From NCBI GenBank assembly GCA_005882045.1, contig VBHO01000146.1, positions 1 through 37,233 on the forward strand: a stretch of 37,233 nucleotides of DNA. Direction: 5' to 3'. Positions 3,877 through 17,499 of this stretch are shown piece by piece (position 1 is the stretch's first letter; the number at the start of each line of letters is the position of its first letter). The position numbers and the translations under genes were made by a program. This DNA is from Chloroflexota bacterium (GTDB taxonomy: Bacteria; Chloroflexota; Dormibacteria; CF-121). A model generated the notes under the pieces. It did not search any database. It was not told the DNA's origin and was given only the letters and a program-made list of their open reading frames with translations.

Positions 3877-3895
3877 TAAAGACGCGCGGCGCGTC
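3877..3895 (-). terminator. Short hairpin with TTTA tail after the thioredoxin/NHL gene
   Basis: On the minus strand GACGCG-CCG-CGCGTC is followed by TTTA, starting at the stop codon of the thioredoxin/NHL gene. It is a weak intrinsic terminator candidate separating it from the LuxR gene. Confidence 0.35.
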
Positions 3896-5369
3896 AGTCG
3901 CCGATGACGGTCCGAACCGTCCCGCTGGTCCAATCCGCGACCGCGATCCGGTGGTTGTTGGTGTCCGCTATGTAGAGGCCCTCGACGCCGGCACAGACAC
4001 CGCCGGGCTCGCGGAACGCCGCCGATGGCCCGGCTCCGTCCGCCCGTCCCGCGGCGCCGCTCCCGAGCCAGCTGGTGGCGGCGCGGCGCCCCGGGTCCAG
4101 GCGCTTGATTTTGTTGTTGTAGCTATCGGCCACATATAGGGTGGCGTCGTGGCCGGTAATCCCAAGCGGATGCTGCAGGCGCACCGCATCGCCCTCGCCG
4201 TCCTGGTCGCCAAAGACGAACAGGTCCTCGCCGACCAGGGTTGTCACACGCGCGGTATGGAGGTCGATATCGCGGACGGCGCTGACTTCGGAATCCGCCA
4301 CATACAGGTGTCCGTCGAGAATCGTGAGTCCGCTCGATTGGGCGAACCACGCCTCGCCCGCCGCTCCATCGAGCAGGCCCTCGCGACCGGTGCCGGCAAA
4401 GGGGGCAACCGCACCGCGGTCGAGGTCGAGCGTCCAGATCTGGTGGGTCCCGGCCATCGCGATGTACAGGAGGCGGTCCGCGAGTGCCAGGTCCCAGGGC
4501 GAGCTCAGCGGCGTCGACCGGCCGGGCCCGCCGGTGCCCGGTCGTAAGGCCTGCTCCCCGGTGCCCGCCAGCGTCGTGACGAGACCGGATTCGAGGTCGA
4601 TGGCCCGGATCGCGTGGTTTTCCGTATCCGCAACGTAGAGCGTCGAACCCGATCGGGCTATGCCCTGGGGTTGCTGAAACGCGGCGCGCTCGTCCGGCCC
4701 GTCAGCAAACCCGGGCTCACCCGAGCCGTAGGTCCGCCGGATCGAGCCGTCGAAGCCGGTGAAGACAATGCGGTGATGGTTGCTGTCGGCGACGAACAGC
4801 CCGTCCTTTGTCGCCAGCACCTTGCCGGGGAAGCTCAACGTTCGCGCCGGTTCGCGGATCTCCTCGAGCGCGATCGTCGAGGCAGGCGCATGAAGCAGAC
4901 CCCGCTCCTCGAACTCCTTCAGCATGCCGGCGACGAGAGGATCGAACTGCTCGAAGGGCAGTTCGCCCTCGTGCTTTCCGATGACGCGACCCTCCGGGTC
5001 GATGAACATCAGCGTCGGCCAGGCCCGGCCGCCAAAGCGCTGCCAAACGGCAAAGTCCCGGTCATTCACGACCGGATGCTCGATGCGATACCGGAGCACC
5101 GCTTCCCGCAAGTTGGCGGTCTCGCGCTCAGCCGGGAATTTGGGTGAATGGACGCCGACCACGATCACCCGGTCTCCATACTTCTGTTCGATCTTCCGCA
5201 ACTGCGGAAAGGTATGCATGCAGTTGATTCAACAGAAGGTCCAGAAATCGATGATTGCCAGCCGCCCGCGCAGGTCGGCGATGTGCAGCGGCCGGGATAC
5301 GTTGAGCCAGTCGAGCCCTTGTGGGAAGTCGGGGGCGCGAACCGTGCCGGCGTAGGTGTGAACGGCCAT
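3894..5369 (-). CDS. Selenocysteine-containing thioredoxin-like/NHL-repeat protein (NHLRC2-type); TGA at 5229-5231 read as Sec47
   Basis: Probable 491-residue selenoprotein. From ATG 5369 the N terminus (WLNVSRPLHIADLRG, then IIDFWTFC) matches the start of NHLRC2-type thioredoxin-like domains, whose redox motif is C-C-I-N-C. Here the second Cys codon is TGA (codon 47), giving C46-U47-I-N-C50, a UxxC redox pair. A hairpin fitting a bacterial SECIS follows. The thioredoxin domain covers about residues 10-150. Downstream are five to six NHL beta-propeller repeats with recurring LYVADSxNxxI motifs (for example GLFVADSNHHRIV, LYVADSYNNKIKRL, LYIADTNNHRIAV). Ordinary gene calling would start at ATG 5219 and lose the active site. 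The first ATG follows a weak TACCAT -10 by 9 bases. Alternatives: a recent nonsense mutation or a sequencing error, both less likely given the exact motif position and the hairpin. Confidence 0.85.
5193..5210 (-). promoter_or_regulatory. Candidate bacterial SECIS hairpin inside the thioredoxin/NHL gene
   Basis: On the mRNA (minus strand) UUUCCGC (5210-5204) pairs with GCGGAAG (5199-5193) around the tetraloop AGUU (5203-5200). The loop begins 25 nt after the UGA. Bacterial SECIS elements are short stem-loops directly downstream of the UGA, with a G among the first two loop bases and the loop roughly 16-37 nt away; all three hold here. SelB binding is inferred. Confidence 0.75.
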
Positions 5370-5417
5370 CCCGGGTCAATGGTACCGACGCCGTGTTCGT
5401 GGGCTTCCTACCAACGT

Positions 5418-6795: not shown

Positions 6796-7757
6796 TTGCC
6801 GATATGCGCCGCGGGAATCGTTCCCATCCGGCCGCGACGGAAGTCATCGAAGGCCTGGGCCAATTCCTCGTGCGTGTTCATCACGAACGGTCCGTACCAG
6901 GCCACCGGCTCACCAATCGGCTCACCGCCGAGGACGAGCACCTCGAGGTTCGGCGACCGGCTTTCCTGCGTGAGGTCGGCGGTCAGGCTGATCACGTCGC
7001 CCTCGCCGAAGGCCGCCAGCTGTCCGGTGCGGATGGGTGCGCGCTTGGCGCCCACTGTTCCGCGTCCGGCGAGGACGTATACCAGCCCATTGAACTCGCG
7101 CCGCCAGGGAAGACGGAGCTCAGCTCCCGGATTGACCGTGACGTGGAGCAGGCTGATCGGAGTGTGCGTCATGCCAGGGCCTTTATGGCCCGCGATCTCT
7201 CCAGCGATCACCCGCAGCAGCGCGCCACCGTCGTGTGAGGCGAGCAGCGTGACCCGGCTCGCGCCGATGTCCTGGTAACGCGGCGGCGTCCACTTCTCAT
7301 CGGCCGGCAGGTTGACCCAGAGCTGGATGCCGTGGAAGAGTCCGCCGCTGGTGATCAACGCCTCCGGCGGCCGCTCGATGTGGAGGATGCCGGCCCCAGC
7401 CGTCATCCACTGGGTGGCGCCATTGGTGATCAGGCCGCCCCCGCCGGTGGAGTCCTGGTGCTGAAAGGTGCCGTCGATCATGTAGGTCACGGTCTCGAAG
7501 CCGCGATGCGGATGCCAGGCCGTGCCCTTCGGTTCGCCCGGTCCGTACTCCACCTCACCCATCTGATCCATGTGAATGAAGGGATCCAGCAACCGCTGGT
7601 CGAGCCCGTAGAAGGCGCGGCGCACGGGGAACCCCTCGCCCTCGACGCCCTTCGGCGCCGTGGTGATGGCGAGCACCGGACGGTCGACGCTGGTCGCACC
7701 ATCAAGTTCAGGCAGACGAGGCAACGTCAGGATGTTTTCGACAGTGACTGCGGGCAT
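6792..7757 (-). CDS. Pirin family protein (bicupin, metal-binding)
   Basis: A 321-residue pirin-like protein with an N-terminal cupin carrying the iron-binding set H82, H84 (AWHPHRGFETVTYM), H126 and E128 (AGAGILHIERPP), and a less conserved C-terminal cupin. Pirins include quercetin 2,3-dioxygenases and redox-sensing cofactors; which role applies here is not determinable. The C terminus (about residues 285-321) matches the family tail YGPFVMNTHEEL with a DDFRRGRMG ending. The ATG at 7757 is preceded by TATATC at a 7-base gap, suggesting a leaderless or near-leaderless message. It is divergent from the LLM oxidoreductase gene. Confidence 0.93.
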   Translation of the reverse strand: MPAVTVENILTLPRLPELDGATSVDRPVLAITTAPKGVEGEGFPVRRAFYGLDQRLLDPFIHMDQMGEVEYGPGEPKGTAWHPHRGFETVTYMIDGTFQHQDSTGGGGLITNGATQWMTAGAGILHIERPPEALITSGGLFHGIQLWVNLPADEKWTPPRYQDIGASRVTLLASHDGGALLRVIAGEIAGHKGPGMTHTPISLLHVTVNPGAELRLPWRREFNGLVYVLAGRGTVGAKRAPIRTGQLAAFGEGDVISLTADLTQESRSPNLEVLVLGGEPIGEPVAWYGPFVMNTHEELAQAFDDFRRGRMGTIPAAHIGN

Positions 7758-16298: not shown

Positions 16299-17069
16299 TC
16301 AGGGTTTGGCGGCGCGGATGAAGGCGCTGGCGATCTTTCCTGATCCTTCCGGCAAGCCAGCTTCGCCCGGACCGTAGGTGTTGGTGATCTCGATCTCGAC
16401 GGCATCGAAGCCGGCCTCGACCACGGCGGCGCGGTAGGCGTCGATCGGGATGGTGCCGGCCACACAGCCGGCCCAGGCGTCGATCGCCGACTTGACGTGC
16501 GCCGGCAGCGGCTCAAGCTCGACCATGTCCGAAACGGCCAACCGTCCGCCCGGCCGCAGCACCCGGAACGCCTCTTTCAGAACGGCGCTCTTGTCGGCGG
16601 CGAGGTTGATCACGCAGTTGGAGATGACGACGTCGACCGCCGCATCGGCGAGCGGAAGCGCCTCGATGGTCCCCTTGAGGAAGGTCGCGTTTTCCACGGC
16701 CGCGCGTGCCTTGTTCTCGTTGGCGAGCATCAGCATCTCGTCCGTCATGTCCACGCCGTAGGCGTGACCCCCGGGCGCAACCCGTCGCGCCGAGAGCAGC
16801 ACGTCGAGCCCCGCGCCGCTGCCGAGATCCAGCACGACCTCACCGGCATGCAGCTGAGCCAGTGCCGTCGGGTTGCCGCAGCCGAGGCTGGCGCCGAGGG
16901 ACAGACCGAGGTCGGCGACTTCCGCTTTCGAATACTCCTCTTCGCCGATGGGACCGCTCATGGCATCCGATCCGCCGCAGCAGTTCGGGTCGCAGCAGCT
17001 TCCGCCATCACGTAACTTGATCGCGGTCTCCGCGTACTTCGCTCGGACGGAATCCCGAATGTTGTCCAT
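16299..17069 (-). CDS. arsM: Arsenite S-adenosylmethionine methyltransferase
   Basis: A 256-residue SAM-dependent enzyme that methylates As(III). Seen: the Cys-rich N terminus (GGSCCDPNCCGGSD), SAM motif I VLDLGSGAGLDVLLSA, YGVDMTDEML, and the arsenic-binding cysteines in LGCGNPTALA, VISNCVINLAADK and WAGCVAGTIP. Length and order fit ArsM. ATG 17069 has AAGGGG about 9 bases upstream. It is divergent from arsR-arsC, with a consensus-like promoter over the shared operator, so expression is predicted to be arsenite-inducible through ArsR. Confidence 0.95.
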   Translation of the reverse strand: MDNIRDSVRAKYAETAIKLRDGGSCCDPNCCGGSDAMSGPIGEEEYSKAEVADLGLSLGASLGCGNPTALAQLHAGEVVLDLGSGAGLDVLLSARRVAPGGHAYGVDMTDEMLMLANENKARAAVENATFLKGTIEALPLADAAVDVVISNCVINLAADKSAVLKEAFRVLRPGGRLAVSDMVELEPLPAHVKSAIDAWAGCVAGTIPIDAYRAAVVEAGFDAVEIEITNTYGPGEAGLPEGSGKIASAFIRAAKP

Positions 17070-17109
17070 GAAAAACCCCTTCTTGGAGAGATCGACGGCT
17101 ATCGATGGA

Positions 17110-17138
17110 ATGCTAGCAGAGCCATAGACACATGTCAA
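17110..17138 (-). promoter_or_regulatory. arsM promoter
   Basis: TTGACA (17138-17133) and TAGCAT (17115-17110) on the minus strand with exactly 17 bp between them, about 40 bp from the arsM ATG. The -35 hexamer is half of the palindromic operator. Confidence 0.75.
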
Positions 17139-17139
17139 T
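17124..17139. promoter_or_regulatory. Candidate ArsR operator
   Basis: ATAGACA-CA-TGTCAAT is an inverted repeat (6 of 7 arm positions match) centred between arsM and arsR. It covers the -35 boxes of both divergent promoters, the expected place for ArsR repression of both transcripts. Confidence 0.7.
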
Positions 17140-17153
17140 GGAACTGATATGCT
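17125..17153 (+). promoter_or_regulatory. arsR promoter
   Basis: TAGACA (17125-17130) and TATGCT (17148-17153) with a 17-bp spacer. The ATG at 17161 follows by 7 bases, so the message is predicted to be leaderless. Confidence 0.6.
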
Positions 17154-17160
17154 GCGACTG

Positions 17161-17499
17161 ATGAAGAGCTCCCTCCCGGATCGCGTCAAAGGGGTATGCT
17201 CGCCACCCGCGATGCCGATGGCGCTCGCCAAAGTGGATCAATCGGTCGAAGTTCTGAAGGCGCTCGCGGATCCGACCCGTCTACAAATGATCGGAATCCT
17301 CAAGCGCTCGGCGGAGCCGGTCTGCATCTGCGACTTCACAGCGGCTTTCGATCTGAGTCAGCCGACCATTTCGCATCACATGGCGAAGCTGCGGGAGGCC
17401 GGGCTGGTCGACGTCAGCAAGGCAGGTATCTGGGCCTACTACCGGTTGGCCAGCCGCCTGGAGCCGAAGACCCGGGCGTTGCTCGACGTCCTGGTCTGA
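17161..17499 (+). CDS. arsR: ArsR-family arsenite-responsive repressor
   Basis: A 112-residue SmtB/ArsR winged-helix repressor. Metal site: VCICDF with Cys55 and Cys57 at the start of the DNA-binding domain, as in classical ArsR. The recognition helix region is LSQPTISHHMAKLREAGLV and the wing is GIWAYYRL. A further Cys13 in the N-terminal extension might serve as a third ligand. ATG 17161 is chosen because it follows the -10 box by 7 bases; ATG 17149 would lie inside that box. It is followed after 7 bp by arsC and represses both itself and arsM by inference. Confidence 0.93.
   Translation: MKSSLPDRVKGVCSPPAMPMALAKVDQSVEVLKALADPTRLQMIGILKRSAEPVCICDFTAAFDLSQPTISHHMAKLREAGLVDVSKAGIWAYYRLASRLEPKTRALLDVLV

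Follow-up and report, generated by a model that had tools for sequence, protein, structure and literature searches.

Background

NHLRC2 is an essential protein of mammals with unknown chemistry, and its gene is mutated in FINCA disease. In thioredoxin chemistry the first active-site residue (position 47 in the protein described here) attacks and the second (here Cys50) resolves, and selenocysteine (Sec) is with few exceptions confined to catalytic redox positions. The cis-Pro of NHLRC2 has been described and its active-site motif sits in a cleft facing the beta-propeller (PMC6107167). Of its relatives, Arabidopsis SOQ1 is a membrane-bound protein with a HAD domain in the thylakoid lumen, while the C-terminal domain of DipZ (PDB 2hyx) is a related thioredoxin domain with an SCINC motif (PMC6107167). 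The known thioredoxin-fold selenoproteins with a UxxC motif are Trx, Trx-like 1, Prx-like, the redoxin family and the thiol-disulfide isomerase-like proteins (PMC13188914, PMC2398784).

Reading frame and gene features

The window, i.e. the whole stretch of DNA that was analysed (37,233 nucleotides), comes from a soil bacterium of the phylum Chloroflexota, and dozens of relatives across the phylum encode the same predicted Sec form of an NHLRC2/SOQ1-type gene (Table 1). The read-through product begins with MAVHTYAGTVRAPDFPQGLDWLNVSRPLHIADLRGRLAIIDFWTFC-U-INCMHTFPQLRK... at ATG 5369 and presents the family motif C-C-(I/V)-N-C as C-U-I-N-C, in the context DFWTFC-U-INC, with the TGA being the only one inside the frame. 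The first-pass annotation had followed the frame past ATG 5219 through this single TGA (5231-5229) to ATG 5369, which was confirmed to the base, and had read the additional codons as the start of an NHLRC2-type thioredoxin domain, which is borne out by matches to NHLRC2/SOQ1 from end to end and to Pfam Thioredoxin_8. Its label of a thioredoxin-like/NHL-repeat protein was correct as to the domains and is refined here to the NHLRC2/SOQ1 family. The active site is indeed lost in standard annotation, as it had warned, with the default ORF call starting at ATG 5219, the codon of Met51 (3894..5219, 441 aa).

Table 1. Positions of the gene, its codons, domains and RNA hairpin in the window, with supporting observations
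Feature	Position	Strand	Observation
Predicted Sec-containing NHLRC2/SOQ1-type gene	3894..5369	-	491 aa with UGA read as Sec; stop TGA 3896-3894
In-frame TGA, codon 47, inferred Sec (U47) of C-U-I-N-C	5229..5231	-	TGA in the same column in 29/80 best homologues
TGC, Cys50, resolving Cys of UxxC	5220..5222	-	Invariant in alignment A2
False start, Met51 ATG	5217..5219	-	Chosen by ORF finder; not conserved
Upstream in-frame TGA closing the frame	5376..5378	-	Three codons upstream of ATG 5369
Bacterial SECIS-type hairpin, UUUCCGC-AGUU-GCGGAAG	5193..5210	-	Begins 18 nt, and its loop 25 nt, downstream of UGA
Covarying stems in other Sec genes			CUGCCGC/GCGGCGG (L160); CUGGCGC/GCGCCGG (L162); GUAG-CGC/GCG-U-CUAC (L074); CUCUCCC/GGGGGAG (L169)
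Thioredoxin-like domain, about residues 10-160	4890..5342	-	Pfam Thioredoxin_8 3.2e-9, AhpC-TSA 1.7e-6; AlphaFold model
NHL-repeat six-bladed beta-propeller, about residues 177-486	3912..4841	-	Pfam NHL 2.1e-27; structure matches 6gc1, 7djk
Pro118 of invariant W-P, thioredoxin cis-Pro equivalent	5016..5018	-	Alignment; NHLRC2 cis-Pro in PMC6107167

The genomic neighbours encode a LuxR-type regulator, a YkuD protein and a pirin, among which no functional clue was found. Elsewhere in the window, an arsenite methyltransferase gene, arsM, lies at 16299-17231 on the minus strand (NF008823, 297.8 bits). Sec forms are known in this family, and the motif residue is Cys here (GGSCCDPNCCGG). In six marine Dehalococcoidia (L067, L068, L071, L075, L077, and L095) the gene adjoining the Sec gene downstream encodes an LQHKxNPVDWYPWGxEA...GYSxC protein, which we take to resemble the DUF255/YyaL thioredoxin-domain family and which is a possible redox partner of the Sec protein.

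Comparison with NHLRC2, SOQ1 and other homologues

As judged from sequence comparison and the AlphaFold model (mean pLDDT 94.3), the predicted read-through protein is homologous over its full length to the NHLRC2/SOQ1 family. Human NHLRC2 (PDB 6gc1) is matched over residues 10-482 (phmmer 2.4e-111) and shares both domains and the way they are arranged (Foldseek TM 0.94, rmsd 1.6-1.7 Å, 41% identity), and U47-I-N-C50 aligns with Cys90-I-N-Cys93 of its CCINC site. The expectation that the TGA replaces the N-terminal redox Cys was borne out, with the Sec corresponding to Cys-90 of the human protein, which is the second Cys in CCINC and the first in CxxC. Unlike the Chloroflexota protein, the human one is eukaryotic, has Cys at this place and carries a C-terminal beta domain. 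Most members of the Sec clade likewise lack this domain (25 of 29 are 486-501 aa long), and it was not taken as family-defining, because it has been called non-conserved (PMC6107167).

The lumenal region of SOQ1 (PDB 7djj, 7djk) was matched at 6.5e-114 by phmmer, with its CCINC aligned to C-U-I-N-C and a TM of 0.94 for the superposition of the model on 7djk, while SOQ1 differs in the membrane anchoring, HAD domain and location given above and in having Cys instead of Sec. The DipZ domain likewise has Cys instead of Sec and lacks an NHL propeller. Bacterial Cys-type homologues from Planctomycetota, Acidobacteriota, Zixiibacteriota, and others share 46-54% identity and the same two domains, but have TGC or TGT at the site, no SECIS hairpin and, in most cases, a C-terminal extension (618-682 aa). 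Across the 34 homologues of alignment A2, position 47 (C/U), N49, C50, H52, W117, and P118 were invariant. At residue 46 some relatives have Gly or Ala in place of the first Cys of the motif, and as it is Gly in several homologues, the working pair would be 47/50, not 46.

Occurrence of TGA and Cys at codon 47

Homologues were drawn from the 80 best matches in GTDB genomes and from a survey of 400 Chloroflexota genomes. The TGA-bearing genes among the best homologues had no other in-frame stop, and the remaining 51 of the 80 carried TGC or TGT. In the survey 78 genomes carried the gene; exactly one in-frame TGA was present in 57 of them, none in 21 (including a fragment without its N-terminus, G273), and any other stop in 0. 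For 55 of these 57 the TGA was located by direct reading, and it always lay in the codon-47 column. It had been proposed to look for TGA/Cys pairs in relatives, and these fall exactly in that column, while random stops elsewhere in the domain, named beforehand as grounds for refutation, were never seen among the homologues. The TGA forms span Dehalococcoidia to Thermomicrobia and Ktedonobacterales, all belonging to Chloroflexota in the broad sense, with the search outside the phylum not being exhaustive.

The default ORF call would suit a TGA that is a real stop, with a restart at ATG 5219 or a decaying pseudogene and a plain NHL-repeat protein as the product. Against seven close relatives, however, the 46 codons 5' of the TGA showed dN/dS values of 0.07-0.22 and amino-acid identities of 76-85%, a level of purifying selection which indicates that the upstream part is truly coding. 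The ATG of Met51 was replaced by CTG, CTT, TTG, CTA, or AAC in 7 of 30 Sec genes, and this lack of conservation, together with the low dN/dS before the TGA, is evidence against a downstream restart. A start at 5219 would also halve the thioredoxin fold, and a stop or pseudogene does not fit a TGA at a single column in dozens of species without a second stop, leaving this explanation scarcely credible. Because the window comes from a draft metagenome, one could suspect that TGC or TGT was misread or misassembled as TGA. This concern is negligible, since TGA and hairpin recur together in assemblies that are independent of each other and of varied origin, among them the complete Ca. Lucifugimonas marina genome.

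The SECIS-type hairpin

Of the hairpin described in the first-pass annotation, the position, the AGUU loop and both distances from the UGA stand, while the stem amounts to 6-7 bp rather than a firm 7 bp because the terminal U-G pair is weak. The bacterial SECIS model asks for a loop of 3-9 nt, a stem of 4-16 bp, a G in the first two loop positions, a UGA-to-loop distance of 16-37 nt, and a minimum free energy of at most -7.5 kcal/mol (PMC13188914). With its 4-nt loop and -8.8 kcal/mol, the hairpin satisfies these published constraints and also covaries, in agreement with the claim that it fits bacterial SECIS rules. As a single sequence it is unremarkable (z = -1.0 for the 45-nt fold against shuffles) and becomes compelling only through comparison across genes.

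In 38 distinct Sec genes, 96.6% of hairpin cells were paired, and a slide by one column cut the pairing to about 50%. Compensatory changes occurred in 14 cells in the same genes versus 3.7 in shuffles (0 of 500 shuffles). Over the hairpin codons, 54-60, eight related genes did not differ by a single synonymous change, which is the minimum among 393 windows. The sequence CAGTTG at the loop was found in 30 of 30 Sec genes versus 3 of 51 Cys genes, with all three of the latter being Ktedonobacterales nested within the Sec clade. The Cys genes otherwise retained 1-4 of the 7 hairpin pairs, except four Ktedonobacterales genes with 6 and one further gene (L086) with 5. In one genus group (L193, L195, L196, and L198) the hairpin has moved by one base, its stem having 8 bp and its loop only the 3 nt GUU, possibly a lineage-specific SECIS variant.

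Selenocysteine machinery

A search for selA, selB, selC (tRNA-Sec) and selD had been proposed as a check, and all but the tRNA gene were found in the organism's own genome. The adjoining selA (C136:6168-7250, E 3.9e-138) and selB (C136:7328-9187, 352 bits) were accompanied by selD on another contig (C125:21808-22734, L016, 399 bits), which has its own Sec in SHGAGUACKIG (GAGUACK), bringing the selenoprotein genes of the organism to at least two. When the draft genome was searched for tRNA-Sec with Rfam, the tRNAs recovered were all for Ser, Leu, Phe, Cys, or Arg; Rfam and ARAGORN likewise found no tRNA-Sec in the 20 kb around selA-selB and the 15 kb around selD. A DNA search of the genome with the tRNA-Sec of a sister species returned chance matches only. 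In a sister genome (L123) the tRNA-Sec starts 14 nt after trxA, while the contig with the organism's own trxA (C37:6709-6999) ends at 6999 inside the gene, at about codon 98 and ~33 nt short of its end (C37:5500-6999, L152). The missing tRNA-Sec would be explained by an assembly gap at this contig end, which seems to fall just before the place where sisters carry the gene, although its true absence is not disproved.

Among the 29 TGA-bearing genomes, SelB exceeded the cut-off in 25 and an ARAGORN-confirmed tRNA-Sec was present in 25, with one or both found in 29 of 29. In Ca. Lucifugimonas marina (L077), whose genome is complete, the TGA gene occurs together with SelB and tRNA-Sec. In the survey of 400 genomes, SelA occurred in 56 of 57 TGA carriers versus 262 of 343 other genomes. 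This association is real, though partly due to shared descent because SelA is common in the phylum (318 of 400 genomes). SelA was missing from one TGA carrier only (G389, 77% complete), apparently a duplicate of assembly G020, in which tRNA-Sec is present. A 9 Mb Anaerolineales MAG (L074, genome G026) contains the TGA gene, SelA, and tRNA-Sec, with SelB scores that are only EF-Tu-like and below the family cut-off; either its SelB is divergent or the genome is incomplete. Matches to RF01852 in two Dehalococcoidia (L127 and L130) were not counted as tRNA-Sec. They are tRNA-Ser (GCU) genes above the gathering score, which means that RF01852 matches in Chloroflexota need checking.

Instead of Sec, near-cognate read-through or a reassigned genetic code could place a standard amino acid (Cys or Trp) at UGA 47, and Cys would work, as relatives have it at the aligned position. 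This is highly unlikely, given that the gene itself terminates with TGA, that internal TGAs were found only here and in selD, and that selA, selB, selD, and tRNA-Sec are carried by the genomes; plain read-through would, moreover, leave the conservation and covariation of the hairpin unexplained. With the coding frame, its conservation, the hairpin and the Sec machinery all shown computationally, the insertion of Sec at codon 47 is inferred as very likely in the absence of protein-level data. We assign a probability of roughly 0.94 to a true selenoprotein gene in which UGA 47 is decoded as Sec.

Evolutionary history

In trees of 106 and 104 proteins the Sec genes formed one Chloroflexota clade (SH-aLRT 99), requiring 3 and 5 changes of state between Sec and Cys versus 23-36 in shuffles. 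The simplest reading of these sequence trees would be one gain of Sec followed by several reversions to Cys (Ktedonobacterales, L166, and L205). The trees were quick and contain long branches, one of them leading to L205, and the count of reversions is not firm.

Most Ktedonobacterales Cys genes retain CAGTTG or 6 of the 7 hairpin pairs, the latter being found without UGA in L057, L058, L063, L064, L190, L191, L194, and L197. Two genes of the same family as these Cys genes (L187 and L188) have the TGA and the full hairpin. The hairpins of the Ktedonobacterales Cys genes look like decayed SECIS remnants after reversion from Sec to Cys. In a wider reading, which we favour without regarding it as secure, NHLRC2/SOQ1 proteins including the human one would be redox enzymes with the second Cys of CCINC as the nucleophile. 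The ancestor of the Chloroflexota branch would have gained Sec, which was kept phylum-wide, while Ktedonobacterales and others reverted and were left with decayed, still-coding SECIS hairpins.

Proposed mechanism

In the proposed mechanism, SelB and tRNA-Sec would read UGA codon 47 as Sec, directed by the adjacent downstream hairpin, with Sec47 substituting the attacking Cys of CxxC to give U-I-N-C. The protein would be a cytosolic oxidoreductase, as its N-terminus, inspected by eye, is without a hydrophobic stretch. Held in the interdomain cleft, an oxidised substrate or a disulfide may be attacked by Sec47, after which Cys50 would resolve the selenenylsulfide. The propeller may select the partner, an idea which rests on the position of the NHLRC2 motif in the cleft against it. 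Disulfide exchange combined with such partner selection is an inference that we consider moderately probable.

Alternatively, the protein could be a selenoprotein whose Sec serves peroxide reduction, metal chemistry or the formation of covalent adducts on a propeller-held partner. Human NHLRC2 was inactive in an insulin assay, from which its authors doubted disulfide exchange, and DTT did not undo the modification that plastid lipocalin receives in a SOQ1-dependent manner (PMC6107167). By analogy, the negative assay of the human homologue may be taken to weaken a simple thioredoxin-like role. On the other side, the Sec lies in a UxxC whose Cys50 is invariant, as is the W-P loop, which is how sites of disulfide exchange are usually built, and we regard these other chemistries as possible but the less likely option. 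Sec at position 47 throughout the phylum argues that this residue is the redox nucleophile and does not indicate the substrate.

Novelty and implications

The 2026 catalogue, which lists 119 families of selenoproteins from prokaryotes, has no NHL or NHLRC2-like entry. No matching selenoprotein model was found in NCBIfam and no NHL-repeat or NHLRC2 selenoprotein in the literature, and on these grounds the gene represents a new selenoprotein family. The known UxxC thioredoxin-fold selenoproteins share the UxxC and the use of Sec for the attacking Cys, but none is catalogued with NHL repeats or as NHLRC2-like. Marine fragments of the family may have been lumped under "Trx-like 1" or "thiol-disulfide isomerase-like", two broad entries for which no sequence comparison was made.

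Gene finders that cut this selenoprotein family at Met51 remove its active site. The homologues form a natural series, from Sec with SECIS through reverted Cys with a SECIS remnant to Cys without SECIS. For the substrate search, the Sec form offers a sensitive handle through 75Se, its low pKa and the trapping of partners with C50 mutated. As Sec is nearly confined to catalytic redox positions, its phylum-wide presence points to Cys-90 of NHLRC2 as the nucleophile and gives good grounds for ascribing redox chemistry to a family that is still poorly understood.
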